A stretch of DNA of 21,516 nucleotides from a virus: the IMG/VR virus record IMGVR_UViG_3300007537_000018, positions 1 to 21,516 of that record; one strand, written 5' to 3'. Numbering within the stretch: the stretch's first letter is position 1; the number at the start of each line of letters is the position of its first letter. Made by a program: the position numbers and the translations under genes. A model generated the notes under the pieces. The model was not told the DNA's origin and ran no database searches. It worked only from the letters and a program-made list of their open reading frames with translations. This document shows positions 1,371 through 19,347 of the stretch, in pieces.

Positions 1371-1374
1371 GATT

Positions 1375-3084: not shown

Positions 3085-3097
3085 ATGGCTTGAAAAC

Positions 3098-3886: not shown

Positions 3887-3900
3887 ATTTTCCTTTTTTT

Positions 3901-4101: not shown

Positions 4102-4126
4102 CTCATTTGTGTTCTGTTTGTCAACT

Positions 4127-4591: not shown

Positions 4592-4594
4592 TTT

Positions 4595-4729: not shown

Positions 4730-4863
4730 TTATTCCTCCAATGGTAGTCGGTGTAACGTCTTAAGAAGTTTGTCATCTCATCGCTTCTTGCGCAATCTTC
4801 TTTTGCATTTAAAGCCATCTCGATGTTTCCATCCGAGAAATCTAAATCATTCATGAAGCCCAT
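4726..4863 (-). CDS. 45-aa small soluble protein, function unknown
   Basis: Start ATG at 4863 behind GGAGG with 5 nt spacing. The ribosome site lies inside the last codons of the ankyrin gene, whose stop is at 4851-4853 (13-bp overlap). The peptide is acidic to neutral (MGFMNDLDFSDGNIEM), with a likely helix MALNAKEDCARSDEMTNFLRRY and an aromatic end TDYHWRNK. Its TGA overlaps the next ATG as ATGA. Strong ribosome site plus overlaps on both sides support translation. No family was recognised. Confidence 0.62.
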   Translation of the reverse strand: MGFMNDLDFSDGNIEMALNAKEDCARSDEMTNFLRRYTDYHWRNK

Positions 4864-5540: not shown

Positions 5541-5558
5541 TATCCTTTGGTTTATGGT

Positions 5559-6050
5559 TTACGCTTTGTTTCTTTGGTTTCCAAAAATTAGACGGCTTCT
5601 AGCTTCTGCAATTTCGTCGCTGTAACATCCAAAATGTTCAGCTTGTTGCAATAGTTCTTGCAAAATGTAGCGCGTTTTCATGTTAAGCTTAAAAGCTTTG
5701 TATTCGTTTACTAATTGTGCTATTTTATTAGCAAACTCGCATGTCATACAATCTTTGCTATCATGCTTTGGCTCAACAATGTCTAATATCTTATACGAAA
5801 TCGATTTGTCATCTGCGTAGAAAAATTTTGCATTAATATCGTAGTTTTTATCGGCAGTATAAATCCTTATTTGATTTTTCTTAGCAAAAGGATTTAACTT
5901 ATCTTTATCTTCGAGCTCTACAAAAGCGTCGAACCATACCCATTCACCAAATTCTGGTATGCCATTCATATGATTGACGCTGCCTTTATATTCTAGTGAG
6001 CCAATGCATGATTGCAGAGCTAAGTGTGCTATTTCTTTTATTTTATTCAT
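5559..6050 (-). CDS. Hypothetical protein, first gene of the leftward operon
   Basis: A 163-aa protein that I do not recognise. It looks folded: an N-terminal helix with a Cys, a strand-rich middle (EFGEWVWFDAFVELEDKD, then NQIRIYTADKNYDINAKFFY), then a possible metal site CMTCEFANKIA (C-x2-C, about 102-105, with a further Cys near 141) and a helical C-terminus. It directly follows the leftward promoter at 6079-6108 and would be the first early protein made. The start ATG at 6050 follows AAGAAAGATA, a weak ribosome site. The gap to the ankyrin gene is 18 bp, so it is in the same operon. Confidence 0.75.
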   Translation of the reverse strand: MNKIKEIAHLALQSCIGSLEYKGSVNHMNGIPEFGEWVWFDAFVELEDKDKLNPFAKKNQIRIYTADKNYDINAKFFYADDKSISYKILDIVEPKHDSKDCMTCEFANKIAQLVNEYKAFKLNMKTRYILQELLQQAEHFGCYSDEIAEARSRLIFGNQRNKA

Positions 6051-6078
6051 TATCTTTCTTATCAGGTTTACGTTTAAT

Positions 6079-6108
6079 ATTAGAACACACGCAATAGGGG
6101 TGTGTCAA
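6079..6108 (-). promoter_or_regulatory. Leftward early promoter with dyad in the spacer
   Basis: On the - strand: TTGACA (complement of 6103-6108), 18-nt spacer, TCTAAT (complement of 6079-6084). The spacer and the edge of the -35 hold an inverted repeat, ACACAC (6085-6090) and GTGTGT (6100-6105), with a 9-nt centre, a plausible operator. Transcription would begin near 6072, about 20 nt before the ATG at 6050. It should drive the whole leftward operon down to SSB. Confidence 0.65.
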
Positions 6109-6175
6109 CACTTTTTTTGCTTCTTTCCCTTTTTTTTTGCGATGGAGGTGTTCTGACGTGGTTTGAATTAATTTA

Positions 6176-6217
6176 TTGACATATTTATAAAAAACTTTAA
6201 GATACGATCATATCGTA
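6176..6217 (+). promoter_or_regulatory. Rightward promoter with operator-like dyad at the start site
   Basis: TTGACA (6176-6181), 16-nt spacer, TAAGAT (6198-6203), followed by a perfect inverted repeat TACGAT-cat-ATCGTA at 6203-6217, which overlaps the expected transcription start. A bound protein would block the terminase operon. The leader is only about 17 nt and has no clear Shine-Dalgarno before the ATG at 6227. It lies back to back with the leftward promoter about 70 bp away, so this is the early/late switch region visible in the window. Confidence 0.62.
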
Positions 6218-6226
6218 AGTTCAACT

Positions 6227-6598
6227 ATGGCAGGGAGAAAAAAGGGCAAAGAGTATAAACCTGAATTTTGTGATGAGTTATCAAAGCTTTCGCAAAGGAA
6301 AGGTGGTTTTAAAAATAATGTAATATCGTATTTTGAGACATCGTATTGGATGATTGATAAATGGCGTGATGAATATCCTGAATTTGAAGAAGCTTATAAT
6401 TTGGCCTTAAGAAATAAGCTATTGGATTTGGATAGGAAGCTGGAAGAAGGGCGTCTCGACTATAAGTATTGGAGAGCTCAGTATTGGATGCAGGCTAAAG
6501 AGCGTTGCGAGCCTTCAGATAAAGTTCAACAAACAACACATCATCGTCTTTCTGATGCAAATATAAGAGATTTTGTGAATGCACTAGACTCAAAATAA
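6227..6598 (+). CDS. terS: Terminase small subunit
   Basis: A 123-aa protein starting MAGRKKGKEYKPEFCDEL. An N-terminal helix-turn-helix (FKNNVISYFETSYWMIDKWRDEYPEFEEAYNLAL, about residues 25-60) fits the DNA-binding domain of small terminases, where W...PEF..A is common. A coiled oligomerisation helix follows (NKLLDLDRKLEEG, YKYWRAQYWMQAKERC), then a flexible tail. It recognises the packaging site and recruits the large subunit. The large-subunit gene starts directly at the next base after its stop, so the pair is coupled. The call rests on size, fold and position; sequence identity to a named family is not certain. Confidence 0.8.
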   Translation: MAGRKKGKEYKPEFCDELSKLSQRKGGFKNNVISYFETSYWMIDKWRDEYPEFEEAYNLALRNKLLDLDRKLEEGRLDYKYWRAQYWMQAKERCEPSDKVQQTTHHRLSDANIRDFVNALDSK

Positions 6599-8173
6599 AT
6601 GGCCAAGGCTACGAAAAAGAGAAACTCCACCAGATATAAGGAGAAGTTGGCTGATATACTGTTTGATTTTGAGAAGTTCTGTGCAAACTTTCTAAAAATT
6701 AAGACAAAAGCTGGGAGGTTGGTTCCTTTTGAACTAAACCCTCTGCAGGTGCGCCTTCATAATGAAATTGAAGAGCAGAGACGTCAGACTGGTAGGGTTA
6801 GGGTAATTATCCTTAAGGGTCGTCAGATTGGGATTTCTACATACACTCAGGCTCGTTTTTTGTGGCGAATGTTTACGGGAGGTTCGTTGCGAGCTTTTAT
6901 TTTAACACATCATTCTGAAGCGACTAAGAATATCTTTAGGATGACAAAGCGTTATCTCGAAAATATTGATCAGTTTACGGTAAACCTCGGAACTTCTAAT
7001 ATAAATGAACTCACGCTGCCAAACTTAGGTTCTAGCTACCGCGTTGGCACTGCAGGATCGAGCGCGACAGGAAGATCCGATACTATTCAGTTGCTTCATG
7101 GTTCTGAAGTGGCGTTTTGGCCAAACAGTGAAGAACACATGGCTGGTTTATTGCAGGCGATTCCAAATCAGGATGGCACTGAGATAATCCTAGAATCGAC
7201 AGCTAATGGTTTAGATAAAACGTTTTATAGAATATATACTGAAGAAGGTTCCGACTCAAATGACGACGTATGTGCATTTAAGCCAATATTTTTACCGTGG
7301 TTTTTGCAAGAAGAGTATTCAATTCATAACTTTGGAAACTTATCTTTAGATGCTGAAGAAATTGCTTTAAAAGCCAGATATGATCTAACTGATCATCAAA
7401 TGTTTTGGAGAAGGCTGAAGATTAGAGAGCTTGGGTCTGTAGCAAAGTTTGAACAAGAATATCCAAATGCACCTTCCGATGCTTTCAAAGCTTCTTTTGA
7501 TGAAACTCTGATTGATCCGGCAGTTGTTATTGAAGCTCAAAAGCATAGTGCTATTGAGCCATTTTTAGATCACAATGCTCCTATGGCGATTGGAGTTGAT
7601 CCATCAGGTCCAGGGAAAGATAAGACTGCTATAGCAATTCGTCAAGGTAGGGCAATCTTTTATGCCGAAGCGTTTTCGTATACAGACGAATCTTTAAATA
7701 TTTCAAAAGTAATTGAATTAATTAAAAAGTATAATCCTGATAGAGTTTTTATTGATAACGGTGGTGTAGGAAGTCCTCAAATCACATCCTTAACGCAAAT
7801 GGGATATGGTGATGTTATTAGTAGAGTTAATTTTGGGTCTCCTTCGACTGAAAAAAATAGGTTTGCAAATAAGAGGTCTGAAATGTATTGCAAATTCAGA
7901 GAGTGGCTGAAGGATGATGTGTTCATTACCAAAAATGATGCGATTCCCATTCAGGCAGGTACAACTCTTTTTAAGCCAAATATGCTTGGCGGCATTCAAT
8001 TATTGTCAAAAGAGCATTTGAAATCAAAGGGAATGTCATCTCCTGACTTGTTAGACGCAATTATACTAACATTTGCTGAAGATTTGCCGAATAGAGATGC
8101 TAAAAAGTTTTTAAATTCATACGAAAATGGGGGATCAGTTAAAAATCACACATGGGATCCATTCGCGATTTAG
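6599..8173 (+). CDS. terL: Terminase large subunit (packaging ATPase-nuclease)
   Basis: A 524-aa protein of normal TerL length. The ATPase half has a Walker A-like KGRQIGIST (73-81), a Walker B region LLHGSEVAFW with the catalytic Glu at 170, and the coupling motif IILESTANG (196-204). The conserved EYPNAPSDAF (about 287-296) precedes the RNase H-like nuclease domain, with acidic residues at GVDPSG (Asp334), FIDNGG (Asp386) and DLLDA (Asp486). It cuts concatemeric DNA and pumps it through the portal. All key residues appear present. Start and stop abut its neighbours: the ATG follows the small-subunit stop directly, and its last 47 bp overlap the next gene. Whether packaging is headful or cohesive-end cannot be told. 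Confidence 0.96.
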   Translation: MAKATKKRNSTRYKEKLADILFDFEKFCANFLKIKTKAGRLVPFELNPLQVRLHNEIEEQRRQTGRVRVIILKGRQIGISTYTQARFLWRMFTGGSLRAFILTHHSEATKNIFRMTKRYLENIDQFTVNLGTSNINELTLPNLGSSYRVGTAGSSATGRSDTIQLLHGSEVAFWPNSEEHMAGLLQAIPNQDGTEIILESTANGLDKTFYRIYTEEGSDSNDDVCAFKPIFLPWFLQEEYSIHNFGNLSLDAEEIALKARYDLTDHQMFWRRLKIRELGSVAKFEQEYPNAPSDAFKASFDETLIDPAVVIEAQKHSAIEPFLDHNAPMAIGVDPSGPGKDKTAIAIRQGRAIFYAEAFSYTDESLNISKVIELIKKYNPDRVFIDNGGVGSPQITSLTQMGYGDVISRVNFGSPSTEKNRFANKRSEMYCKFREWLKDDVFITKNDAIPIQAGTTLFKPNMLGGIQLLSKEHLKSKGMSSPDLLDAIILTFAEDLPNRDAKKFLNSYENGGSVKNHTWDPFAI

Positions 8174-8603
8174 CACCGCTTATGTGATTATTTTAAGAAA
8201 TAGTGGACGCACTATAGGACATTGGTTTTATAGGTTGTTGCAGAAGATTAGTTTCAAGCTAGTTGATGATAAGGCTTATCATTGCAGTCTGTTATTATTT
8301 CAAGATAGGGAGAGATCTCTGTTGGTTGATTGGGGAGCTCCTCAGATCTATATTAGGCCCGTACGGGGTGCTGCAGATGACGTAATTAAGCGATTAAAGC
8401 GCCAGCCGCAAGTCAATAAAGTTTTGAAAGTTCACAATATGCCTCGTAAAAATCCTGATGGCGCATTAAAAGGTCATCATTGGAATTGCGCATCTGTGAT
8501 GGGTTCTATTTTAGGAGTTGATGTTGGCGGCTTAACGACTCCATCTCAACTTGAAAAGATCTTGAAAGAAAGGTATGGGGCCGAAGAAATCTATTCTTCG
8601 TAA
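8127..8603 (+). CDS. Putative permuted NlpC/P60-like (papain-fold) protein
   Basis: A 158-aa protein with a His early (YHCSLLLF, His52) and a later HHWNCASVMGSILG (Cys121) followed by GLTTPSQLEKIL. The order His then Asn-Cys at the start of a helix is that of circularly permuted NlpC/P60 domains (LRAT/YiiX type), which act as amidases, acyltransferases or thioesterases. Small proteins with this C-terminal pattern occur near terminase and portal genes in several podoviruses. A role in head maturation, in the virion, or in the cell envelope is possible; it is not a typical endolysin. The start overlaps terL by 47 bp in another frame. Another start is not evident, and the first 20 residues, inside the overlap, may be imprecise. 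Confidence 0.55.
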   Translation: MGDQLKITHGIHSRFSTAYVIILRNSGRTIGHWFYRLLQKISFKLVDDKAYHCSLLLFQDRERSLLVDWGAPQIYIRPVRGAADDVIKRLKRQPQVNKVLKVHNMPRKNPDGALKGHHWNCASVMGSILGVDVGGLTTPSQLEKILKERYGAEEIYSS

Positions 8604-8632
8604 TTGACTGATAGTGTGATTTTGTATTTAAT
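8604..8632 (+). promoter_or_regulatory. Candidate promoter before the head gene block
   Basis: TTGACT (8604-8609), 17-nt spacer, TTTAAT (8627-8632), directly after the stop of the preceding gene. The 112-bp gap here is the only notable gap between terL and the portal gene. An A-rich leader ending in an AAGG ribosome site leads to the ATG at 8716. It would allow head genes to be transcribed separately from terminase. Confidence 0.5.
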
Positions 8633-8715
8633 GGTTTGGGTATGGAAAGCTGGAAATATTTTGTTATTATATAAATAATGTAAAAGTTGAATAACACTTA
8701 AAAAAAGGATAAGGG

Positions 8716-9099
8716 ATGGAGTTAAGTTTAGTTATACAAAAGGGTTGGGAGGCCTTGACGTATGCAGGTGGCCATATTGATGGAGTTTGTGTAGCAGGAG
8801 CAGAAGCTTTGATAATTGGCGGTGCAATGTTGGCAGGTTCTGCTGTAAATGCAGTGGTTTCTGCTGATGCAGCGCGAAAACAGGCACATGCTCAACAAGA
8901 TGCGCTCAACTGGCAAAAGGAACAGGTTTCTAAACAAGAGAAGGCTGCTGAAGAAAAAAGACAGGAGTCTTTAGAAAAAGTGCGCGAAAAGCAGACTAGG
9001 ATGTTTGCTCGAAAAGGTAAAAAAAGTTTGTTCAGCGGTAGCTCTGTTGGGCAGGAAGATCCTCGTCATTCAAATGAGGGATTAAAAACGATAGGTTGA
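8716..9099 (+). CDS. Small virion-type protein with hydrophobic and coiled-coil segments
   Basis: A 127-aa protein. A glycine/alanine-rich hydrophobic stretch (GVCVAGAEALIIGGAMLAGSAVNAVV, about 23-48) is followed by a long Q/E/K-rich coiled coil (about 52-92), then a basic MFARKGKKSLFSGSSVG segment. This layout is close to that of the internal virion protein at 19354, which also has a hydrophobic patch followed by a charged helix, so it may be a minor capsid or ejection protein. Such small proteins lie between terminase and portal in BPP-1/epsilon15-like podoviruses. Ribosome site AGGATAAGGG precedes the ATG. The function is not known. Confidence 0.7.
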   Translation: MELSLVIQKGWEALTYAGGHIDGVCVAGAEALIIGGAMLAGSAVNAVVSADAARKQAHAQQDALNWQKEQVSKQEKAAEEKRQESLEKVREKQTRMFARKGKKSLFSGSSVGQEDPRHSNEGLKTIG

Positions 9100-9107
9100 T
9101 TTTAGTT

Positions 9108-9803
9108 ATGGGTGCTAGATCTTATGAAGCTGATCTTAAAAGAGCTTTAGAAAGTAAGATGCCAGTGGCTGCTGGAGAATATGACGGCCACGGAGTGCAT
9201 AGTACAGGCAATATTCCAGCTATTGCTGATCACGAGAGACATTCTGTTGCTGTTTTAACAACAAAACGCAATATGCATTCGAGTGAAAGGAATGCGGTGC
9301 CTTTTTGGGAGCATGTTTTTGAAAATATTGATGAGCCAATAGAGCCTTGGACAGTGCAGAGGCGCCTTGGCCCCCCAAATGCTCTATACACAACAATCCC
9401 TTTTCGACCACGAAGAAGTGGAGAAGATTACACAAAATATGAATATGAATTTTTATCACATTTTCCGTCGATGACTTTCTCCAGAGAAGGAACTCGGGTA
9501 GTTCCAGGGTTTCCGTCGATGACTTTCTCCAGAGAAGGAACTCGGGTAGTTCCAGGGAGCAGCGTTACACATCAGCGTCTTGTTGAAAACCTTACAATCT
9601 CACCAAAGACAGTTGGTTTAATTGCGCAAAGGGTCTTTTCTGGAGGATCAGCTAAGTCTAGAAAACAGGTTAAGCAGGCAGAGGCTAGAGCAGCTCGTTC
9701 AGAAAAGAAAATGAGGTTTAAAGGCTCGCTAGAAGCACCTGAAAAGACGTGGAATATTTATAATGAGAACATAGGACAATTTGGAAGAACGTCCTTTAGT
9801 TAG
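9108..9803 (+). CDS. Virion-module protein with an in-frame 16-aa duplication
   Basis: A 231-aa protein from the ATG at 9108. A TTG at 9096 would add four residues and overlap the previous stop. No family was recognised. The N-terminal part is predicted globular (SYEADLKRALESKMPVAAGE). A PFWEHVFE...PWTVQRRLGPPNALYTTIPFRPRR segment follows, and then two identical copies of FPSMTFSREGTRVVPG (about residues 119-150), which come from a 48-bp tandem DNA repeat. The C-terminal third is basic and helical (KSRKQVKQAEARAARSEKKMRFKG). It lies just before the portal gene (8 bp gap). The duplicated segment is more GC-rich than the surroundings and may be an insert not needed for function. Confidence 0.7.
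   Translation: MGARSYEADLKRALESKMPVAAGEYDGHGVHSTGNIPAIADHERHSVAVLTTKRNMHSSERNAVPFWEHVFENIDEPIEPWTVQRRLGPPNALYTTIPFRPRRSGEDYTKYEYEFLSHFPSMTFSREGTRVVPGFPSMTFSREGTRVVPGSSVTHQRLVENLTISPKTVGLIAQRVFSGGSAKSRKQVKQAEARAARSEKKMRFKGSLEAPEKTWNIYNENIGQFGRTSFS
9462..9557 (+). repeat. Perfect 48-bp tandem duplication with two internal inverted repeats
   Basis: Copies at 9462-9509 and 9510-9557 are identical by eye. Each unit holds two adjoining inverted repeats, TTCTC-ca-GAGAA and GGAACT-cgggt-AGTTCC (first copy 9477-9505). By direct count 25 of 48 bases are G or C, clearly richer than the AT-rich neighbours. The unit is 16 codons, so the frame is kept. I find no third copy in the window. Confidence 0.93.
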
Positions 9804-9811
9804 GAGAACAT

Positions 9812-11407
9812 ATGTCAGAAAAAAAGGCTAACAGTTTATTAGAGCGATATAATAAAGCAGTATCTAATAGAGATGAATTTAAAGGCAGGTGGGAAGAGGC
9901 TGCTAGATACATGGCGCCTGGTAGAGCAGGATTTGATTATGAACCAGGTTCAAATAAACAACCATATGTTTATGATTCTACTGCTGAACAGGCAATGCAT
10001 CAGGCTGTAAATATGTTTATGAGCATGGTTATTCCGCCTTATACGCGTTGGGCGGAGTTGTCTGCAGGACCAGAGTTAGCACCATATATTCTTTACTTAC
10101 AAGGCAATGTGTCGCCTTCTGAAAAGGATGTAGAAAAAGCTAATGAAGAGATCAATAAAGATTTAGAACATATAACTTCTCAGGTTTTTAACTATATCAA
10201 TGGTTCAAATTTATTTGAGAGCTTAGGTCCATGGACGTATGACTTTTTGATAGGCACAGGAACTATGTTGATAATGCCATCGGATCCAACATCAGGTCTT
10301 TCCAGGGGCAGTCCAATTGAATTTACACCTATTCCAACTTATGAAATTGCAATTGAGAACGGTCCATATGATCGTCCTACAGCTATTTGTCGCAAGCATA
10401 AACTGTTTTGGAGAGATCGTTATTTAGAATTTGAAGATTGGCAAGATCCGCCGAACTGCGGCCATATAGACAAGGATGAAAAGATTGAAGTTATTGAAGC
10501 TACAGTTTTTAATGAGAAGAAAAATAAATGGAGTTATTCAATTATATTTAAAAATCAATTGTGCTTAGAGAGACTTTACAATAACAATCCATTCGTGGTT
10601 TCACATTTCTCTCTTGTTCCTGGCGAAACTTATGGTCGTGGTCCTGCAACTCATGCTTTGGCCGATGTAAAAACTCTTAATAAAGCCAAGGAGCTAACTT
10701 TAAAGTCAGCACAGTTAAATGCTTATGGTGCTTATACGTTACAGAGAAATGATGTTCCAAATGTAAACAATGTGCGAATCTTTCCAGGAGCTATAATTCC
10801 TGTTAAACAAAACAAAGGATCATCAACAGCCCCAACTATTGAGCCCCTACCAACTTCTGGCAATTTCCAATGGCAAGAATTACAGATTCGTGAGTTGCAG
10901 CAACAAATTCGCAGTGCATTCATGATTTTTGATTTATTTCCTACAGAACGAACTGACAGAATGACAGCCACAGAGGTTTTGGCGAGACAAAGGCAGTGGC
11001 AGATGAATAATTCTGCTCTGTATGGTAGAATTTGTAATGATTTGATAGTGCCATTAATGCAGAGAATAATAGATGTTTTATCTCAGACAGGCAGAATAGC
11101 CCTTCCAGAATGGTTTACAAAGATAGATTATACAAACTTAAAGCTTGATGTATTGAGTCCAATTGCAAGGATTCAGAATGGTCAGGACATTGAGTCATTA
11201 ACGCAAGCGATGCAGTTGACAGGGCAAATAGCACCAGAACTAGTAAATGCTGGATTTAAGGTTGAAGAATTGCCATATTATTTTAATTCTATGCTTGGTG
11301 GACGAACTAAGTTTAATAGGCCACAAGAAGAAGTTGAACGTAGGCTTCAAGACATGCAACAGGCGCCTCAACAAGCTCCTGAAATGCCAGAAAATATGGT
11401 TAGTTAA
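9812..11407 (+). CDS. Portal / head-tail connector protein
   Basis: A 531-aa protein matching the T7 gp8-like head-tail connector family. The N-terminus has LLERYNKAVSNRDEFKGRWEEAARYMAPGR, then DSTAEQAMHQAVNMFMSMVIPPYTRWAEL. A middle GPWTYDFLIGTGTMLIMP stretch and a C-terminal stem-like region follow (QQQIRSAFMIFDLFPTERTDRMTATEV, where the R.TATEV.....W pattern is conserved in these portals). Twelve copies form the ring at one capsid vertex through which DNA is packaged and to which the tail tube proteins attach. The length is typical. Ribosome site TAGGAG is well placed before ATG 9812. The next gene starts 2 bp after its stop. Confidence 0.96.
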   Translation: MSEKKANSLLERYNKAVSNRDEFKGRWEEAARYMAPGRAGFDYEPGSNKQPYVYDSTAEQAMHQAVNMFMSMVIPPYTRWAELSAGPELAPYILYLQGNVSPSEKDVEKANEEINKDLEHITSQVFNYINGSNLFESLGPWTYDFLIGTGTMLIMPSDPTSGLSRGSPIEFTPIPTYEIAIENGPYDRPTAICRKHKLFWRDRYLEFEDWQDPPNCGHIDKDEKIEVIEATVFNEKKNKWSYSIIFKNQLCLERLYNNNPFVVSHFSLVPGETYGRGPATHALADVKTLNKAKELTLKSAQLNAYGAYTLQRNDVPNVNNVRIFPGAIIPVKQNKGSSTAPTIEPLPTSGNFQWQELQIRELQQQIRSAFMIFDLFPTERTDRMTATEVLARQRQWQMNNSALYGRICNDLIVPLMQRIIDVLSQTGRIALPEWFTKIDYTNLKLDVLSPIARIQNGQDIESLTQAMQLTGQIAPELVNAGFKVEELPYYFNSMLGGRTKFNRPQEEVERRLQDMQQAPQQAPEMPENMVS

Positions 11408-11409
11408 TT

Positions 11410-11793
11410 ATGAAAGAAAAGTACTTATTTAAAGATTTACAAAAAGATTTGTTTTTAGCTGAAGGAGGAACCTTCGTCGATGATAATGGCAAACAAAGAA
11501 CTTTTTATACATTAAACATCACTTACACATATGAAGATCCTTTGCATAAGACAGAGATTGGATCCAAGCTTTTTAAGCATGTTTTAAGCACTCCTACACT
11601 TGTTTGGGAAGAGGCCGTTGATTCTTTACATAAGAAAACTAAAAAAGTATTTTCCAATGTTAGAAATTATACCGAAATCCCAGATGACTTTTTTGAGGAT
11701 TTAAAAAATAACGAAACATTGAAAAAGAAATTTATATATTTTAATGATTATACTAATTCTGACATCAAAAAAGAAATACAATTACCGTTATGA
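11410..11793 (+). CDS. Hypothetical protein after portal (127 aa)
   Basis: A 127-aa lysine-rich protein, unrecognised. It shows a strand-rich first half (TFVDDNGKQRTFYTLNITYTYEDPL) and a helical second half (EEAVDSLHKKTKKVF, DDFFEDLKNNETLKKKF). No signal peptide or membrane segment is seen. It begins 2 bp after the portal stop, and its end overlaps the next start by 4 bp (ATGA), so it is in the late operon and co-translated. Confidence 0.7.
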   Translation: MKEKYLFKDLQKDLFLAEGGTFVDDNGKQRTFYTLNITYTYEDPLHKTEIGSKLFKHVLSTPTLVWEEAVDSLHKKTKKVFSNVRNYTEIPDDFFEDLKNNETLKKKFIYFNDYTNSDIKKEIQLPL

Positions 11794-12089
11794 ATGATGA
11801 TATATATAATGAAGATGCCGATAGGCTGAATAAGCAATTGCACAAAGAACAGCTGCAAAAACAATTGTTTAATGGCAAAAAGTATAAAACTTGCTTTTCA
11901 ACAGAAGAAGGTGAGTTTGTTTTAGATGATTTAATAAATTATTTTGATTATGAGCAGATTTTCATTGCAGGCTCTGGACAATCTTTTCAGGACGTAGCAT
12001 TTGCCGAAGGCCAGAGATTTGTTATAAATTATATAAAAAGTCAGATAAAGAATGCTGATATAATATTACATGAAGAAAATGATGAATAA
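11790..12089 (+). CDS. Bbp19-like phage protein
   Basis: A 99-aa protein. Residues about 30-92 follow the pattern of the Bbp19-like domain first named in Bordetella phage BPP-1: a CFSTEEGEFVLDDLINYF helix, a short loop region, and FAEGQRFVINYIKSQI, where the E-G-x-R before the last helix is the conserved feature. The function is unknown; such genes sit between portal and scaffold in BPP-1-like podoviruses, as here. It overlaps the previous gene by 4 bp and the following small membrane protein by 20 bp. Confidence 0.68.
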   Translation: MNDDIYNEDADRLNKQLHKEQLQKQLFNGKKYKTCFSTEEGEFVLDDLINYFDYEQIFIAGSGQSFQDVAFAEGQRFVINYIKSQIKNADIILHEENDE

Positions 12090-12243
12090 AATAAAAAAAG
12101 GTATAAATAAATTCGCATCAGCAGTGCTAGTTTGTATTGTAGTTCCATTGCGATTGTTTTCAATAGCTTTCATGGTACTATCAACTATAATTGATGTAAT
12201 TGATAGATATTTTGCAAGTTTATTATATAAATTAACAAATTAA
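12070..12243 (+). CDS. 57-aa membrane protein, possible holin or host-membrane factor
   Basis: Frame from ATG 12070 (in-frame ATGs also at 12079 and 12082) to TAA at 12241. A basic N-terminus (MKKMMNKIKKGINK) is followed by a hydrophobic stretch, FASAVLVCIVVPLRLFSIAFMVLSTIIDVI (about 15-44), and a short amphipathic end. This is long enough for one or two membrane helices. It overlaps the Bbp19-like gene by 20 bp in another frame; an A/G-rich GAAGAAA stretch precedes the internal ATGs. Size and shape are compatible with a small holin, but no endolysin is adjacent, so the role is open. Confidence 0.55.
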   Translation: MKKMMNKIKKGINKFASAVLVCIVVPLRLFSIAFMVLSTIIDVIDRYFASLLYKLTN

Positions 12244-12257
12244 TAACTAATATCTAT

Positions 12258-12332
12258 ATGGATGATACCTCTATTATACTGCTGATTTTATTATTCGCCG
12301 CGATGTATTTAGATTTCAAAAAAAATGTATGA
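12258..12332 (+). CDS. 24-aa single-helix micropeptide (tentative)
   Basis: ATG 12258 to TGA 12330-12332 gives MDDTSIILLILLFAAMYLDFKKNV: an acidic start, one membrane-length hydrophobic helix and a basic end. It follows the 57-aa membrane protein by 14 bp and overlaps the next gene start by 8 bp. There is no convincing ribosome site, so it could be a chance frame. The clean charge-helix-charge layout and the tight packing favour a real small gene. Confidence 0.35.
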   Translation: MDDTSIILLILLFAAMYLDFKKNV

Positions 12333-12537
12333 TGACGTTGAGGAACAGTTACAACATTTAATTGAAAAGCATGGAGATGTTGTCATCAATGATGATTTAA
12401 CAATTAGCTTAGCATTGCCATCAACTGATCTATCTTTGTTTTTTGTACATGGAGAACAACCACATTTGCTTTATAGAAAAGGGAAAAACAAAATGTGTCC
12501 GAATATTGAGAAATATGGTTACTTTTACGGTTTATAA
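12325..12537 (+). CDS. Hypothetical protein (70 aa)
   Basis: A 70-aa acidic-to-neutral protein (MYDDVEEQLQHLIEKHGDVVINDDLTISLALPSTD) with an N-terminal helix and a strand-rich end (LSLFFVHGEQPHLLYRKGKNKM, YGYFYGL). No family was recognised. It lies in the late block between portal and scaffold. The A-rich upstream sequence lacks a clear ribosome site; translation may depend on the overlapping micropeptide frame. Confidence 0.55.
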   Translation: MYDDVEEQLQHLIEKHGDVVINDDLTISLALPSTDLSLFFVHGEQPHLLYRKGKNKMCPNIEKYGYFYGL

Positions 12538-12539
12538 GC

Positions 12540-12568
12540 TTGAAAAGCATGTAGATCATGTATATTCT
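12540..12568 (+). promoter_or_regulatory. Candidate weak promoter before the scaffold gene
   Basis: TTGAAA (12540-12545), 17-nt spacer, TATTCT (12563-12568), in the 60-bp gap before the scaffold ATG at 12598. The -10 matches only four of six consensus bases, so this is tentative. An 8-bp AT palindrome with a 1-nt centre (12571-12587) lies between it and the AAGGG ribosome site. Confidence 0.3.
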
Positions 12569-12597
12569 TATTTTTTAGTCTAAAAAAAAGGGTATAT

Positions 12598-13377
12598 ATG
12601 GCAGAAGAAGAAGTTGTTGAAGAGAGCACACAGGATAATAATGTATCTAATGAAAGCCTCCAGCAAGCCAATAATAGTGGGGCTGTTGAAGAAAAAGGCA
12701 GTGAGCAATCGAGTGTAGCGCAACGTCCTGATGAAATTCCAGAAGAGCTCTGGGATTCTGAATCTGGAAAAATAAATAAGGAAAAACTAGACCAGACTCT
12801 TCATGACGCAAAACGCACTGATGATATGCGCAAAAAGCTATCATTAAATGATGTTCCAAAGGACCCTTCTGGGTATGAATTTAAAACTGCATCTGAAGAT
12901 ACTATTCCTGAAATAAAAGAAGACTTTGCAAAGTTTGCTCATGAAATTGAGTTACCCAAACATAAAGCAGATGAGTTGTTTGGTAAACTATCTGAAAGAT
13001 TTACAGATTATGTAAAATTAGCAACTACTCCATCTGACGAAGATTTAGAAAAATTTCAAAAAGCTCAAAAAGAAGAATTAGGAGATGACTACGAAAAGAT
13101 AGCAGATGCTGTTAAGAGCTATGGTAACACATTGAGCAGTGATGAAGAATTCGAAGATTTCAAGGCTACAATGTATGATGCAAAAACTACTCGTGCAGTT
13201 TACAAGCTAATTCAACAGGCCCAAGAAAAGTCCATTCCAAAAAGAACAGGAGATACACATATGAGCGATACTTCAGAAGATCAGATTAAAGAAGAATATA
13301 GAAATGCGATACAATCTGGTGATATTGATCGTCAAAAAAAGGCTGTGCAAAACTTAAGGAGTTTTTATGGCGAGTGA
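12598..13377 (+). CDS. Scaffolding protein
   Basis: A 259-aa, highly acidic protein. The first 45 residues are disordered and rich in E, Q, S and N (MAEEEVVEESTQDNN). PDEIPEELWDSESGKINKEKLDQ follows, then charged helical segments, and the C-terminal part is basic-amphipathic (IKEEYRNAIQSGDIDRQKKAVQNLRSFYGE). Size, acidity, helix content and position between portal and major capsid gene are those of podovirus scaffolding proteins, which assemble the procapsid and leave before maturation. Ribosome site AAGGG precedes ATG 12598. Unusually, the capsid gene does not follow directly; 1.5 kb of other genes intervene. Confidence 0.8.
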   Translation: MAEEEVVEESTQDNNVSNESLQQANNSGAVEEKGSEQSSVAQRPDEIPEELWDSESGKINKEKLDQTLHDAKRTDDMRKKLSLNDVPKDPSGYEFKTASEDTIPEIKEDFAKFAHEIELPKHKADELFGKLSERFTDYVKLATTPSDEDLEKFQKAQKEELGDDYEKIADAVKSYGNTLSSDEEFEDFKATMYDAKTTRAVYKLIQQAQEKSIPKRTGDTHMSDTSEDQIKEEYRNAIQSGDIDRQKKAVQNLRSFYGE

Positions 13378-13729
13378 AAAAGAGAAGTCACCACATGATA
13401 AAGTAGTATTATCGATTCAACTACCTCGCTCAATGAAGGAGGAGGCAGTTAAAAAGGCTGTTCAAAACGGAACGAATATTACAAAACTGGTGCAGAAGTG
13501 GATAGATAAATTTTTGCGCGGCAGCGAGGAGGTCTGCATGTCTCGATCGGAATGGGAGATTATTGAGAATACAATTACCGAGCATGCAGAGCTTTCTCGT
13601 GATACTGGCGCGAAACAGGCAACGCCAGAAGTTGTTGAGGCCCTTTTTCGCGATCTCCCAAAACATAAACGTAACTTATGTTTCGTGAAGCTTCAGAATA
13701 TTTGGATGAATCCACATGCAAATCCTTAA
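13367..13729 (+). CDS. Ribbon-helix-helix-like protein with possible internal start
   Basis: A 120-aa protein overlapping the scaffold stop by 11 bp. Residues 13-50 fit a ribbon-helix-helix fold: a VVLSIQL strand, a SMKEEAVKKAVQNG helix, then NITKLVQKWIDKFLRG. The rest is a different, more polar segment. A strong Shine-Dalgarno, GAGGAGG (13526-13532), lies 5 nt before an in-frame ATG at 13538 (Met58), so a 63-aa C-terminal product (MSRSEWEIIENTITEHAEL) may be made separately. From about 13510 the DNA looks more GC-rich than the neighbours. The last 155 bp overlap a gene on the opposite strand, so the true 3' extent of one of the two is uncertain. Possible roles are regulation of the adjoining cassette or an antitoxin-like protein; neither is shown. 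Confidence 0.6.
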   Translation: MASEKEKSPHDKVVLSIQLPRSMKEEAVKKAVQNGTNITKLVQKWIDKFLRGSEEVCMSRSEWEIIENTITEHAELSRDTGAKQATPEVVEALFRDLPKHKRNLCFVKLQNIWMNPHANP

Positions 13730-14003
13730 TCTTTTTATAGATTGTTTTGTAGTACATCTTTGTATTATTTAATTGCATTATGGCATTCTTCATAGCGTAA
13801 CATACCCGTTGGAAGTTGGGGTATATCATTAGGTCGGCATCCTTTACTTTTATGCCTTTAGGGATGCCGGCTTTTTCTTTTACAAGATCAAGGATTGCTT
13901 TATAGTACCAATTTGCATTTCGCGAACCTTGAGATTTTGCCAGCTCTACAAATATTTTTACAGAGTCCATTAACTCATTACGAATATTACTTTTATGCCT
14001 CAT
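13575..14003 (-). CDS. Opposite-strand gene, resembles prophage accessory/regulatory domain
   Basis: A 142-aa basic protein, the only - strand gene in the late block. The segment from FVELAKSQGSRNANWYYKAILDL to YYKTIYKKIKD (about residues 18-92) resembles a domain common in prophage regulatory or antirepressor-type proteins: an SQGSxxAxxYY opening, a helical middle, and a Y-K-x-I-Y-K end. This is recognition by pattern only. The last 50 residues overlap the RHH gene on the other strand and look less conserved, so the frame may have been extended by insertion. The ATG at 14003 has no clear ribosome site. Together with the recombinase it looks like a moron-type insertion. Confidence 0.5.
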   Translation of the reverse strand: MRHKSNIRNELMDSVKIFVELAKSQGSRNANWYYKAILDLVKEKAGIPKGIKVKDADLMIYPNFQRVCYAMKNAIMQLNNTKMYYKTIYKKIKDLHVDSSKYSEASRNISYVYVLGDREKGPQQLLALPVSRQYHEKALHAR

Positions 14004-14055
14004 CGTTTTTAATTCTCACACACATTTATTGGTAATTGCAAGCTAAAATTTTGGT

Positions 14056-14109
14056 AACGAAAACGTTCGTTTTTGAGACTTGTTCTTAGCCCTATAAATA
14101 TTGTACGAT
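14056..14109. promoter_or_regulatory. Operator-like dyad between the divergent cassette genes
   Basis: A perfect inverted repeat AACGAA-aacg-TTCGTT lies at 14056-14071, with a single TACGAT at 14104-14109. TACGAT is exactly the half-site of the dyad at the rightward promoter (6203-6217), and both dyads share ACGA/TCGT cores. The 208-bp region between the opposite-strand gene and the recombinase gene is very AT-rich, and I see no convincing -35/-10 pair in it. Confidence 0.4.
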
Positions 14110-14211
14110 TTTGTGCTATTTTTAGTATCAAAACCCATGTCAAAAACAAAATATTAAAATGTGATTTTTTAGTTGAGTTTTGAAACATTATATTAGAGAT
14201 TGTTTAATGCT

Positions 14212-14766
14212 ATGAAGATTGGATATGCACGTGTATCAAAATTTGATCAAAATATGGATCTGCAAATGGATGCATTAGAAAAAGCAGGATGTATTAGAAT
14301 ATTTTATGACAATATTTCTGGTGCCAAAGATGTTCGACCAGGCTTGACTAATTTAAATAATGCTTTGAGAGAAGGTGATATTTTTATTGTTTGGCGCCTA
14401 GACAGGCTTGGGCGTTCATTAAAACAATTAATTTCTATAGCAAATGATTTAGAGTATCGTGGTGTTGGTTTAAAAAGTTTATCAGAGTCAATCGACACCA
14501 CGACTCCTGGCGGCAAATTGATATTTCATGTATTTGGGGCTTTAGCTGAGTTTGAGCGCAATATTATAAAAGAACGCACAAAAGCTGGTTTAACCGCTGC
14601 TAGAACAAGAGGGAAAGTAGGTGGTAGACCTAAAAAGATAGATACAAATATTATATTAGCAATTAAACACTTGCATGAAAAAAGTGAGTTGCCAATAAAA
14701 GATATTTGCAATATGTATGGAATCTCAAAGCCAACTCTTTATCGTTATTTAAAAGTCTCCTTATAA
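14212..14766 (+). CDS. Serine recombinase, resolvase/DNA invertase type
   Basis: A 184-aa protein of the small serine recombinase family (Hin, Gin, Tn3 resolvase). The catalytic Ser9 is in KIGYARVSK, with DQNMDLQ after it. Conserved VWRLDRLGRSLKQL (60-73) holds the active-site arginines Arg65 and Arg68. The long E-helix region is FHVFGALAEFERNIIKERTKAGLTAARTRG (105-134), then GRPKK, and the C-terminal helix-turn-helix is at 161-181 (DICNMYGISKPTLYRYL). The length is typical and nothing seems missing. An upstream TTG at 14200 adds four residues; ATG 14212 gives the family N-terminus. It may invert or resolve DNA, or mobilise its cassette. Its place between scaffold and capsid genes is unusual. 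A 28-bp dyad begins 17 bp after its stop. Confidence 0.93.
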   Translation: MKIGYARVSKFDQNMDLQMDALEKAGCIRIFYDNISGAKDVRPGLTNLNNALREGDIFIVWRLDRLGRSLKQLISIANDLEYRGVGLKSLSESIDTTTPGGKLIFHVFGALAEFERNIIKERTKAGLTAARTRGKVGGRPKKIDTNIILAIKHLHEKSELPIKDICNMYGISKPTLYRYLKVSL

Positions 14767-14778
14767 GGCCTATAAAGC

Positions 14779-14811
14779 TTGACAACAATTATTTATTCAT
14801 ACATAATTGTT
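14779..14811 (+). promoter_or_regulatory. Strong promoter for capsid genes with a 28-bp dyad
   Basis: TTGACA (14779-14784), 17-nt spacer, CATAAT (14802-14807). A perfect inverted repeat, AACAATTAT (14784-14792) and ATAATTGTT (14803-14811) with a 10-nt centre, covers the spacer and -10, 28 bp in all. It could be a repressor operator. Serine recombinase crossover sites are also imperfect dyads of about 26-28 bp, so it could be a recombinase-binding or crossover site. The promoter would give the capsid gene, the most needed protein, its own transcription after the interrupting cassette. Confidence 0.65.
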
Positions 14812-14827
14812 TTACTAAAGCGGTTTT

Positions 14828-14935
14828 ATGCAGCCCATAAGGCGAGGGGCTCTCCAGATTTTTTGGTCCTCCTTTAAAGCATTATGGCTACCTGTCGCAC
14901 AATTCGTTGTAAATCAAGTAGTTAATAAAATTTAA
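14828..14935 (+). CDS. 35-aa ORF in the capsid-gene leader (tentative leader peptide)
   Basis: The leader of about 130 nt between the capsid promoter and the capsid ATG contains an ATG at 14828 followed by 35 sense codons and TAA at 14933-14935, ending 12 bp before the capsid start. The predicted peptide (MQPIRRGALQIFWSSFKALW...) is basic at the N-terminus and hydrophobic/aromatic after that. No good ribosome site precedes it; its stop lies beside the AAAGGAGG of the capsid gene. Upstream part of the leader (14832-14851) can form a short AGCCC/GGGCT stem. It may be a leader peptide, an RNA element, or chance. Confidence 0.27.
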   Translation: MQPIRRGALQIFWSSFKALWLPVAQFVVNQVVNKI

Positions 14936-14947
14936 AAGGAGGAAATT

Positions 14948-15811
14948 ATGGCAAGTGGAGATCCACAACTAGAAAAATCATTCGAAGTAGCATTTGATGA
15001 GAATGTACAATTAGCCTATCAAGGCACGTCGGTTACCAGAGGCAAGGTATATACAAAAACAGGAATTAATGGCAAGTCTGTTCAGTTTCGTCGAAGAGGT
15101 GAAACACAAATGTCACCTGCCGTTTACAATTCGCCAGTAACAGGCGGAAACTTAAGCATGGAAGTCGTAACGGCAATGATCAATGATTATGAAGTTGCTA
15201 AGCGACAAAGCCCATTTGATTTGTATAAAGTTAATTTTGATGATGGCATGCAAATAGCTAAAGCAATGGGTTCGGCAATTGGAAGGCAATACGACCAAAC
15301 AATTATTGATGCATTGCAGGCTGGCGCAACATACACAATAGCAGCCGACTATGGTTCAACAAGTGGAAATACAGGGTTAACAATTGATAAAATCAACAGG
15401 ATTATATCAATGCTTGAAGAGCATAACGTTCCGATGCAAGACGTTTGCGGGCTAGTCACACCTCAAGCAAAAGAAGGATTGAGAAATTCAGAAAAAGCTA
15501 CGAGCTCACTATATGTTGACCATAAAGCTATGAATGATGGAAAAATTGAAAAATTAGCAGGCATGGAATTGTTAACTGTAGGAGGTCGCAAAGAAGGTGG
15601 ACTTCCGGTTGATGGTGATAATGTTGCAAGCTTATATTTCTTTGACAAAAATGCCATTGGCGTAGCTGAAGGAGCTCTTTCTGGGCAAGGTGATGTTAGA
15701 AAACAATGGTCAGTTGAGTATCAAGGATGGTTATACTATGGTGGTTTATCAATTGGATCTATTGTAATAGAGCCAGAAGGCATTGTAGAAGTTAAAATAC
15801 AACAAGTTTAA
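14948..15811 (+). CDS. Major capsid protein
   Basis: A 287-aa protein with the features of podovirus coat proteins of the HK97 fold: FEVAFDENVQLAYQGTSVTRGKVYTKTGINGKSVQFRRRGE at the N-terminus, a long helix region DDGMQIAKAMGSAIGRQYDQTIIDAL (about 98-123), a DKINRIISMLEEHNVP spine-like helix, and a C-terminal strand-rich AIGVAEGALSGQGDVRKQW...YYGGLSIGSIVIEPEGIVEVKI. It forms the icosahedral shell. It has the best ribosome site in the window (AAAGGAGG, 6 nt spacing), a private promoter and a leader, all consistent with very high expression. It is followed 19 bp later by the decoration protein. Confidence 0.93.
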   Translation: MASGDPQLEKSFEVAFDENVQLAYQGTSVTRGKVYTKTGINGKSVQFRRRGETQMSPAVYNSPVTGGNLSMEVVTAMINDYEVAKRQSPFDLYKVNFDDGMQIAKAMGSAIGRQYDQTIIDALQAGATYTIAADYGSTSGNTGLTIDKINRIISMLEEHNVPMQDVCGLVTPQAKEGLRNSEKATSSLYVDHKAMNDGKIEKLAGMELLTVGGRKEGGLPVDGDNVASLYFFDKNAIGVAEGALSGQGDVRKQWSVEYQGWLYYGGLSIGSIVIEPEGIVEVKIQQV

Positions 15812-15830
15812 TAAAAGGAGAAAATAAATT

Positions 15831-16760
15831 ATGGCATTAGATATAACAAATCTAACCGTTATTCGTGGTCAAGATAAACCTGAAGCTGTTCAAGGTTATC
15901 TGGCTTATAGAACAGAAGATGATGAAACAACAGTTTCTGGTGTTAATTATTTTGGCAAATTGCAGCACAAACTGTTTAAAGGTGACGAAATCTGGGTTCA
16001 ACACGTTGATGCAGATGGCGAGCTTAAGGGTGAGCATAGATATATGATCGCAATAGATGATGAAGATTTTATTGTGGCATATCCTGTTGCACCTGGTGAA
16101 ATGATAGCTACAGCATATATTGAAGATATAACAGAAGTTGAGCAAGATACATCTGTTTTCAATGAAAAAGTTTTAGCTGATAAAGCTACAGTTTATCTCG
16201 ATGGAACGATAGATACAAGTGATGCTAATATTGCATTAACAATTAATGGAGAAACGATAGGAACAATGACAGTTCCACATACTGCCAGTGAACCTGGATC
16301 AAGTTCAAGCCTTTCGGTTTCCACAATGCATCCATCTACAAGTTATATATTTGGATCAGATGGTACATGTGCTGGCACTTCAGGTGCTTATTGTATTGTG
16401 GTTGGAAAGCCTGTAGTAATAGATAGTGTTTATATTCAACAAGAAAATATTACAATAGATGATACGGCAGCTCAAACAGCTTACATTAATGCACCTATAA
16501 ATGGTAAATTATTAAAGCTTCAAGCTACTATTGATGGTGATCCTGGTGCTGAAAAGACTATTGTAGCAAAAATTGATGGAACTAACGTAGCTAATGGAAC
16601 TATAACAGTCCCGAATGGAACTGCTGCAGGTACCGTTATTAGTGCTAGTCCAACTGCTGACAACATACTGGATGCTGGAGACACGCTAGAGCTTAGCGCA
16701 CCTGACACAGGCGGAAACACTGTTGAAGCATACGTTTCTGCATACATAAAGATTGATTAA
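15831..16760 (+). CDS. Head decoration / head fibre protein with Ig-like repeats
   Basis: A 309-aa protein directly after the capsid gene, with ribosome site AAAGGAG. Residues 1-110 form one domain (VIRGQDKPEAVQGYLAYRTEDDE, EIWVQHVDADGEL). From about 119 on it is a beta-sandwich type sequence poor in Lys and rich in T, G, D and A. A segment at 121-155 (YLDGTIDTSDANIALTINGE) is echoed at 229-270 (LQATIDGDPGAEKTIVAKIDG...TITVPNGTAAGTVISASP), suggesting a duplicated domain. The second copy, ending DNILDAGDTLELS, matches the general pattern of capsid decoration or head fibre domains. It likely projects from the shell and stabilises it or binds surfaces. The exact fold is inferred. Confidence 0.72.
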   Translation: MALDITNLTVIRGQDKPEAVQGYLAYRTEDDETTVSGVNYFGKLQHKLFKGDEIWVQHVDADGELKGEHRYMIAIDDEDFIVAYPVAPGEMIATAYIEDITEVEQDTSVFNEKVLADKATVYLDGTIDTSDANIALTINGETIGTMTVPHTASEPGSSSSLSVSTMHPSTSYIFGSDGTCAGTSGAYCIVVGKPVVIDSVYIQQENITIDDTAAQTAYINAPINGKLLKLQATIDGDPGAEKTIVAKIDGTNVANGTITVPNGTAAGTVISASPTADNILDAGDTLELSAPDTGGNTVEAYVSAYIKID

Positions 16761-16762
16761 AA

Positions 16763-17392
16763 ATGTCGGTTATAACTGATAAAGTTGAACTGGCTAACAG
16801 AGCGCTCAGGAAACTGGGCGCTCAGCAAATCAGTGGTTTTGATGATAATAGTCAGGAAAGCGCTATCTTAGAAGATGTATTTGATCAATGGCGCAAATCT
16901 ATTTTAACCAAAAGTGATTGGAGATTTGCCAGTAAGCAGGATGCACTTGTTCAATCAGGAACAGATCCAGAATTTGGTTATAAATATAAGTTTGATATTC
17001 CAGATGATATGTTAAAGCTTCGCGCTTTATATGTTGCATATGATGACAGTGCGGATCAGTCAGGCAATAATTTGCCTATTTTGACGGACTATAAAGTGTT
17101 TGATGCTATTCATGTGGATTATGAAAATATTTGGGCTGAATATTTATATGATGCAGATTATGCATTGTGGCCTGCATGGTTTGTAGAGTTTGCAGTGTCG
17201 GCATTAGCATATGAATTAGCTATGCCCATCACCAGAGATACTCAATTGTCTCAATTATATAGAGTCGAGGCTTATGGTGAAACTAGTTCTATGATGGGAG
17301 GGTTATTTGCTGAAGCCACAAATCAAGACACTGGTCAGCAACCAACAGACGCATTTAAATTAGATATATTTACAAGATCTAGATTTTACTGA
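16763..17392 (+). CDS. Tail tubular protein A (T7 gp11-like)
   Basis: A 209-aa protein of the size and pattern of T7 gp11: VELANRALRKLGAQQISGFDDNSQESAILEDVFDQWRKSIL at the N-terminus, SDWRFASKQDAL, YKYKFDIPDDMLKLRALYV, and a helical WPAWFVEFAVSALAYELAMPITRDTQLSQLYR segment (about 133-165). It forms the ring between portal and nozzle in the short tail. The start lies 2 bp after the decoration gene stop, and its stop overlaps the nozzle start as TGATG, so the two tail tube proteins are translationally coupled. Confidence 0.93.
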   Translation: MSVITDKVELANRALRKLGAQQISGFDDNSQESAILEDVFDQWRKSILTKSDWRFASKQDALVQSGTDPEFGYKYKFDIPDDMLKLRALYVAYDDSADQSGNNLPILTDYKVFDAIHVDYENIWAEYLYDADYALWPAWFVEFAVSALAYELAMPITRDTQLSQLYRVEAYGETSSMMGGLFAEATNQDTGQQPTDAFKLDIFTRSRFY

Positions 17393-19347
17393 TGAGAAAT
17401 ATTGCCCTACCCCAGTTTAGATTCACCCATGGAGCGTTAAACCCAGAAGCTTCAGGACGTGGAGATTTAGAGTTTTATTACAGCACAGTAAATGAATCTA
17501 GAAATTTAGTTGGCAGGCCTCATGGGGCTCTTAAAAAAAGAGCAGGATTAAAATTTTTAAAAGATATAACGGTTTCAGGCTATGATGAAGGTCATGTTTC
17601 AATGCATGAATTTGCTTTTTCTGCAACACAGGTTTATCTAGTTGTGTTTTTAGATAATGTAATAAAAATTTTTCATGATGATATAGAAGTAAAAGAGATA
17701 ACATCGACAGGATATTCGGGTGAAAGATTATTACAACTAGACACTTGTCAATTCGGTGATACAATGATTATCACTGAAAAAGATGTCCAACCTAAAAAGT
17801 TAGTGAGAGGTGCAACAGATTCAGATTGGACATTGAGTAATATAACTTTTGAAAACGTCCCTCTTCACGAATTTAGCGAAAATGATACATATCCTGGAGG
17901 TACTATAACGCCTTCTGCTGTGGAAGGCACTATAACATTAACGGCTAGTTCTAGTGTTTTAGGCGGTGTCATAGTCGGCCAATATATTATCGGAAATGGT
18001 GGAAGGGCTAGAATTGTTAAAAAGAATTCAGGAACGGAAGTCACTGCAATAGTCATTGCTCCCTTTTATAATAAAAATGCCATTGCAAGTGGGGATTGGT
18101 ATATAACCTCTGGTCGTGAACCTATTTTTGGAAGCGCTAGAGGATACCCTAGAACCTCTACGTTTCATGCAGGTAGATTGGTTTTGGCAGGGTTTAGAAG
18201 TGCTCCAGAATATTACATATTTTCAGTAGTTAATGATTACTTTAATTTTGATTTAGGGCAGTCTGAAGATGACGATGCTATTATGGCTAGTTTGCCATCC
18301 GAAAGAGTCGCAACAATATATTCAACAAACTCTCACAATTCATTAGAATTTTTTACATCAGAAGGGCAGTTTACATTATCTGGAGATGTTATTTTGACGC
18401 CAAATTCGGCTGAAAATGCACTTCATCAATCAACAGATGGTGTTAATGCTTATCCCAAGCCTGTTGATTTGCCGGATGGGGGAACTTTGTTTGTACCACG
18501 AGATGGTGGTTCGATTAGACAATTTATTTTTAGTAGAGATATATTCGCTTATCATGCGGCTTCAATAACTTTTATGTCATCGCATTTAATAAAAAATTGT
18601 GTCGGTTTGGCAAGGCAGAAGCCATCCACAGAAACGGATGGTTCGTATATTTATGCAATAAACAATGATGGCAGTTTAGTTATGGGATGTATTGTCGTTG
18701 ATCAAAATGTATTTTGCTTTCTAAGGCAGGAGACTCAAGGGAAGTTTCAGTATATTCAAGCGGTAGGTGACCAAGTTTATGTTGCTGTGCAAAGAGATTT
18801 GTCTGGAACTACAAAGCTATTTTTAGAGAAATTTGATGCCAGTTTTTGTAGTGATGCTGCTGTACATTTGACTTCTGATACTGCAAAAACATCATGGGAT
18901 GTTCCTGCACATTTGGCTGGTCAAATTTGTATACTGAAAGGCATTGATCCTACGCAAGATAATCCGTCTTGGGAAATTTTTGATCCATTTGTGATGCCTC
19001 TTAGTGGTCAATTTTCTACACCTATTCCTGTTACAGAAGTTGAAGTTGGATTTTCTTTCTGGACAGATTTAATTACAAACCCTGTAGAGATTCCACAACA
19101 AGGCTCTAGCATGGGTCAAAAAAAGAGTATAAGTGAATTGGTATTGAATTTATATAATACACAACAGGTGGTTGTTAACTCCAGGACAGTTTTGGATGAG
19201 CAATATGAAACAGATGCTTTTACTGGAAGAAAGCATTTATTTGCAATTTCTGGATGGGATGAAAAAGGTCAAGTGCGGATAGAGCAATATGATTCTGTTC
19301 CTTTCGAATTATTAAATTTAAATATGAAAGTGAGTTTTGGGAGATAA
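17392..19347 (+). CDS. Tail tubular protein B / nozzle (T7 gp12-like)
   Basis: A 651-aa protein opening LPQFRFTHGALNPEASGRGDLEFYYSTVNESRNLVGRPHGALKKRAGLKFL, the typical N-terminus of gp12-like nozzle proteins (G-x-L-x-P, the R.D...Y..G/...N......G...RR.G block). Later FGSARGYPRTSTFHAGRLVLAG (about 243-264), SVVNDYFNFD and IYSTNSHNSLEFFTSEGQFTL are also family features. The middle is a beta-propeller-type series of strands. It forms the distal tail tube that contacts the fibre and the host. The length is a little below T7 gp12 (794 aa) but normal for BPP-1/epsilon15-type phages. Coupled to the previous gene by TGATG. Confidence 0.95.
   Translation: MRNIALPQFRFTHGALNPEASGRGDLEFYYSTVNESRNLVGRPHGALKKRAGLKFLKDITVSGYDEGHVSMHEFAFSATQVYLVVFLDNVIKIFHDDIEVKEITSTGYSGERLLQLDTCQFGDTMIITEKDVQPKKLVRGATDSDWTLSNITFENVPLHEFSENDTYPGGTITPSAVEGTITLTASSSVLGGVIVGQYIIGNGGRARIVKKNSGTEVTAIVIAPFYNKNAIASGDWYITSGREPIFGSARGYPRTSTFHAGRLVLAGFRSAPEYYIFSVVNDYFNFDLGQSEDDDAIMASLPSERVATIYSTNSHNSLEFFTSEGQFTLSGDVILTPNSAENALHQSTDGVNAYPKPVDLPDGGTLFVPRDGGSIRQFIFSRDIFAYHAASITFMSSHLIKNCVGLARQKPSTETDGSYIYAINNDGSLVMGCIVVDQNVFCFLRQETQGKFQYIQAVGDQVYVAVQRDLSGTTKLFLEKFDASFCSDAAVHLTSDTAKTSWDVPAHLAGQICILKGIDPTQDNPSWEIFDPFVMPLSGQFSTPIPVTEVEVGFSFWTDLITNPVEIPQQGSSMGQKKSISELVLNLYNTQQVVVNSRTVLDEQYETDAFTGRKHLFAISGWDEKGQVRIEQYDSVPFELLNLNMKVSFGR

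Follow-up and report, generated by a model that had tools for sequence, protein, structure and literature searches.

A probable resolvase-res module between the scaffold and major capsid genes of a deep-branching podovirus

Small serine recombinases of the resolvase type act on paired res sites and normally do not integrate. The res of Tn3 TnpR-type systems has three sub-sites, and tnpR can invert the DNA between inverted res copies in vivo (PMC13367494). Here, a recombinase and a candidate site of this kind are described between two head genes of a phage. The DNA analysed, referred to as the window, is a linear virus record of 21,516 bases with 36 % G+C. It encodes a podovirus on a deep branch, with a closest capsid match in phage records that is about 33 % identical (Methylophilales phage MEP301) and a capsid identity of 34 % at best among viral contigs. 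Searches of viral contigs with capsid, opposite-strand, RHH and recombinase protein patterns detected no close relatives, the region had no DNA-level match in phage records, and defence-system models gave nothing convincing. An ankyrin-repeat protein gene (4851-5540, minus strand) was found near genes for an ERF-type annealing protein (4127-4591) and an SSB (3494-3886); its presence in a phage suggests an intracellular or protist-associated host. A VRR-NUC nuclease gene (1451-1864) has a codon usage unlike that of the structural genes (score -0.055) and is possibly a recent acquisition. The features of the window are listed in Table 1.

Table 1. Positions of the cassette, its flanking genes and other late genes in the window
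Feature	Position	Strand	Basis or remark
Terminase	6599-8173		
Portal	9812-11407		
Bbp19-like	11790-12089		
Scaffold/capsid-assembly-like ORF	12598-13377	+	Weak tblastn matches; left neighbour of cassette
Ribbon-helix-helix (RHH, Arc-like) ORF	13367-13729	+	phrog_582 E 9e-4, Arc-like repressor; weak but real
Opposite-strand ORF, C-terminal Bro-N-type likeness	13575-14003	-	Matches to phage and plasmid Bro-N proteins
Res site I (crossover), 26 bp, holds AACGAA dyad	14054-14079	+	Identity to homologous sites; string for copy counting GTAACGAAAACGNNCGTTTTTG
22-bp conserved stretch of site I	14054-14075		GTAACGAAAACGTTCGTTTTTG; 158 bp before recombinase start codon
Probable accessory res sites II and III	14125-14187	+	First half-site 14125-14135; possible last near 14174-14187
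Serine resolvase, 184 aa	14212-14766	+	ATG 14212, alternative TTG 14200; catalytic domain and HTH intact
Capsid promoter, TTGACA-17-CATAAT	14779-14807	+	Sigma-70-type consensus match
28-bp dyad	14784-14811	+	Across capsid promoter (-35 to -10); possible operator
Capsid leader	14867-14943	+	Inverted repeat I9; leader folding
Major capsid	14948-15811	+	phrog_3437 E 3e-32, PF19821 E 4e-40; right neighbour of cassette
Tail tubular proteins	16763-17392 and 17392-19347		

A sequence-only reading of the window had proposed that the scaffold and capsid genes, normally adjacent, are separated here by a cassette that carries an intact serine recombinase, an RHH-like ORF and a gene on the opposite strand, and both parts of this description held. 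The scaffold stop (13377) and the capsid start (14948) are 1.57 kb apart; the scaffold assignment itself is weak, with about 25 % identity to the scaffolds of relatives (weak tblastn matches to the ORF at the scaffold position in 24 relatives, E 2e-10 at best). Loci of relatives were gathered by capsid similarity, and all were distant (capsid identity about 34 % or less). The gap before the capsid gene was below about 300 nt in about 85 of the about 92 with a callable upstream ORF, with the automatically chosen ORF probably spurious in a handful. Wider gaps were the exception (498 nt in L045, 676 nt in L099 and 793 nt in L101, with L102, L104, L105 and L107 also in this group), and no scored relative had a recombinase between scaffold and capsid. 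Because most gaps are this short and none holds a recombinase, the cassette is an addition in the lineage of the window, to which, by this comparison, the insertion is peculiar. Its absence from the same place in all scored, distant relatives also fits the earlier suggestion of a moron. Other ORFs in the same slot, for example in L099 and L101, indicate that the slot tolerates insertions. The ORF in these two gaps is Lys/Ala/Pro-rich and histone-H1-like (L099:7361-7768; L101:3573-3899), and both are alphaproteobacterial contigs, one labelled Rickettsiales.

Comparison across the scaffold-capsid region, as the sequence-only reading had recommended, found recombinase-free gaps but no relative close enough to define the ends of the cassette. 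Direct repeats at its edges were limited to short or 71-84 % pairs, taken as chance. No convincing terminator was found in the cassette region, where promoter-like matches were no more numerous than in shuffled sequence. That the cassette is a phage-borne mobile element inserting itself through the small recombinase, as had also been suggested, is in keeping with the position of a recombinase within an insertion that relatives lack. However, no duplicated site was present at the cassette ends and recombinases of this size and type use paired res sites, and self-mobilization is considered highly improbable.

The recombinase is intact and has the plan of a small serine recombinase, a catalytic N-terminal domain followed by an HTH, with GYARVS and WRLDRLGRS motifs and profile matches to phrog_125 (E 2e-67), Pfam Resolvase (1.5e-42) and HTH_7 (4e-9). 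It is 56-62 % identical to plasmid and transposon resolvases (59-62 % to those borne by plasmids). Homologues were found next to TniA/TniB-like genes in Paracoccus, Gloeothece and Nitrosomonas, and next to toxin-antitoxin or regulator genes elsewhere. The codon usage of the gene resembles that of the phage structural genes (score 0.208; structural genes 0.13 to 0.24), which makes a very recent acquisition improbable. That the resolvase is intact and has this codon usage points to a long stay in the phage under selection.

The PHROG family is labelled DNA invertase and the best solved structural relative is the invertase Gin, which, together with the capacity of tnpR for inversion, favour an alternative in which expression is controlled by the protein flipping a segment between inverted sites, either a tail-fibre segment elsewhere in the genome or one around the capsid promoter. 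However, Gin and other tail-fibre invertases (Gin, Cartapus, P88) formed a clade of their own in a phylogenetic tree (95/98 support), and the window recombinase did not group with these phage invertases. Its nearest relatives by tree path were the recombinase of a Desulfocapsa plasmid, Aquicella TnpR and that of a Protochlamydia plasmid, although the tree does not fix its exact placement. Furthermore, no variable tail gene adjoins the recombinase.

When the DNA preceding homologous recombinase genes was scanned for palindromes, the Mucilaginibacter gene proved to have ACAGTAACGAAAACGTTCGTTTTTGTTACTGT in front of it, and the window has GGTAACGAAAACGTTCGTTTTTGAGAC at the same place. The site in the window shares 22 identical bp with one located 143 bp before a Mucilaginibacter plasmid resolvase that is itself 62 % identical (12 bp or fewer in 100 shuffles), and 19 bp with the res of an Aquicella Tn3-family tnpR directly adjoining tnpA (longest common string in shuffles, 14 bp or fewer). 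Plasmid records were also searched blind, using the AACGAA dyad (14056-14071) and its surroundings (66 bp in all). This recovered sites upstream of recombinase genes in Mucilaginibacter, Aquicella and Staphylococcus aureus plasmids, the Aquicella lusitana match lying 170 bp before a recombinase gene that is followed by a Tn3-family transposase; two further matches that were checked, in Priestia and Rothia, had no recombinase annotated adjacent. The dyad is far beyond chance once set against homologous resolvase genes. Distance to the gene is also conserved, at 158 bp in the window vs 113-170 bp in homologues. The identity of the recombinase, and that of the AACGAA dyad as its crossover site (res site I), can be assigned with high confidence, and a puzzling dyad becomes a testable recombination site. 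A pattern scan of viral contigs returned seven loci, with the site next to a 54 %-identical recombinase in L119 and next to the remains of one in L117, and no recombinase at the other five. In the first of these (L119:1086-1775, IMGVR_UViG_2728369474_000001), another viral contig, the resolvase is thus accompanied by a matching site I, at a distance of 137-156 bp.

Downstream of site I, the first probable accessory half-site follows at +71 bp, as compared with 71 bp in L110 and L124, 72 bp in L111 and 74 bp in L112. Sites II and III are only partly recognizable, site III weakly and by eye in the alignment.

Site I lies between the opposite-strand gene and the resolvase gene, and the AACGAA dyad occurs once in the window. 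No second site I was found there with up to three mismatches, and no inverted partner. The window therefore provides no evidence for a switch of capsid expression, as had been envisaged, since this needs a second site. The remaining form of this idea, in which a second res copy, inverted or direct, lies elsewhere in the genome and the resolvase reversibly rearranges the head operon, is regarded as extremely unlikely. The invertase alternative also fares poorly, as no segment in the window is flanked by two inverted crossover sites and the single site is a res at a place and spacing typical of resolvase genes; it is considered very unlikely. A third alternative is that a Tn3-family transposon lost tnpA and its terminal repeats and left the resolvase, res and a divergent passenger gene behind, as a remnant or a non-autonomous derivative that is perhaps useless to the phage. 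The layout (divergent gene, res, tnpR) is that of the Aquicella Tn3 element, with which 19 bp of site I are identical. However, no tnpA was present among the main window proteins checked, no long inverted ends were found around the cassette, the terminal repeats of the Aquicella element were not matched in the window, and the resolvase is intact with a phage-like codon usage. This origin is possible but rather unlikely.

The interpretation preferred here, and considered quite probable, is that of an acquired resolvase-res module that stands alone and is likely to resolve genome dimers or cointegrates. A module of plasmid, Tn3-family or Tn5053-like type would have entered between the scaffold gene and the capsid's own promoter. 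Resolvase dimers would bind res at site I and at the accessory sites between it and the gene. In a dimeric or cointegrate phage genome, two directly repeated copies would pair, and cutting and rejoining at the centre of site I would yield monomers, with the single copy in a monomeric genome remaining idle. That a one-site monomer becomes a substrate only when dimerized points to this role, and dimer resolution is proposed with moderate confidence as the benefit to the phage. A dimer-resolution module of plasmid or transposon type in a podovirus late operon would be a hint that the phage has a stage that is circular, plasmid-like or multimeric, and the purpose of the module would be comparable to that of Cre-lox of P1. 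No sign of the replication mode was found within the 21.5-kb fragment.

The end of the scaffold gene and the beginning of the RHH ORF share 11 bp. The RHH ORF has a codon-usage score of -0.003, unlike the structural genes (0.13 to 0.24), and may have been added to the operon earlier. Its structure prediction was useless (pLDDT 46), and no RHH counterpart was found in plasmids. The opposite-strand ORF overlaps it by 155 bp and also has a codon usage unlike the structural genes. Its product is similar to a C-terminal part of the Bro-N proteins that Clostridioides phages encode (phiCD27 gp75, 45.7 % identity over 46 aa, E 8e-5), and Bro-N proteins were also found in plasmid records. Its predicted structure includes a helical domain of medium confidence and had one structural match to a viral protein (F8UBN0, E 4e-4). 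Residues 98-142, antisense to the RHH gene, have a pLDDT below 50. The very low confidence of these last 45 or so residues suggests that read-through beyond a junction near 13.70-13.74 kb has probably lengthened the gene; on this model, its true end is probably near 13709 and the last 45 or so codons are read-through.

The sequence-only reading had suggested that two dyads may frame the cassette and had attributed a strong promoter of its own to the capsid gene. Neither dyad frames the unit: the crossover site of the recombinase is inside it and the 28-bp dyad is within the capsid promoter. A second dyad copy, the lack of which had been named beforehand as counting against the proposal, was not found within the 21.5-kb window, where the 28-bp dyad occurs once. 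Perfect repeats with 9-bp arms were at chance level (two in the window vs 0-6 in shuffles; one within the cassette, and at least one in 6 of 60 shuffles), and the dyad could be an operator. The promoter itself stood, as the best sigma-70-type match in two stretches scanned (1-17000), at 11/12 positions with the next best at 10/12. It is not a consequence of the cassette, because promoter-like sites were present in the gaps of 29 of 84 relatives without one (8.4 expected from shuffled sequence).

In podoviruses related to MEP301, a conserved structured leader RNA was found upstream of the major capsid gene (L050:7853-7966, L011:3393-3506, L002:8853-8966 and 36 further loci). The alignment of 39 sequences contains 18 pairs in five helices, with four hairpins closed by a GG/CC pair. 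Paired cells amounted to 94.5 % vs 79.6 % in shuffles and cells changed on both sides to 100 vs 29.7, with a sharp fall when partners were slid. Rfam gave no convincing match for this RNA and none on the window. The covariance model had no match above noise in the window and, on 25 divergent loci, was convincing in L086 only. Together with the promoter-like sites, this RNA in the gaps of relatives indicates that separate capsid transcription probably predates the cassette. In the window leader, pairing is possible between an upstream TCCTCCTTTAAA and AAAAGGAGGA, the ribosome-binding site of the capsid gene, and could hide the start of capsid translation. The leaders of L006, L007 and L074 also carry a complement of the ribosome-binding site upstream (CCCTCGTTT with AACGAGG in L006-type phages). 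The covarying leader RNA of many relatives, for which Rfam gave no convincing match, may merit closer study than the cassette itself.

Among known systems, the Gin/tail-fibre invertases of Mu and P2-like phages are about half identical to the window recombinase and share its domain plan, but use two inverted sites around a tail-fibre segment, whereas the window shows a single site, of the res type, and lacks an invertible segment. MAnkyphage_25.80 (Ca. Megaira), a circular phage record, also carries a phage-borne resolvase (52 % identical), which differs in adjoining an annotated terminase and in lacking an upstream counterpart of site I. TniR of Tn5053/Tn7-like elements (Paracoccus, Nitrosomonas and Gloeothece plasmids) is 60-61 % identical, with palindromes at a similar upstream distance in two of three, but the site sequence is different and TniA/TniB-like genes come after. 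The Tn3-family TnpR/res of Aquicella lusitana plasmid 4 (resolvase 56 % identical) matches in the 19 bp of site I, in site-to-start distance (170 vs 158 bp) and in having a divergent gene beyond res; it has tnpA and terminal inverted repeats, whereas the window has neither and its module sits in a phage head operon. The stand-alone resolvase of Mucilaginibacter robiniae plasmid unnamed1 shares the 62 % identity, the 22 bp of site I and a half-site at 72 bp, and differs in being on a plasmid with an ArsR-type regulator as its divergent neighbour. The parts of the cassette are ordinary, and only their location within a phage head operon is unusual.
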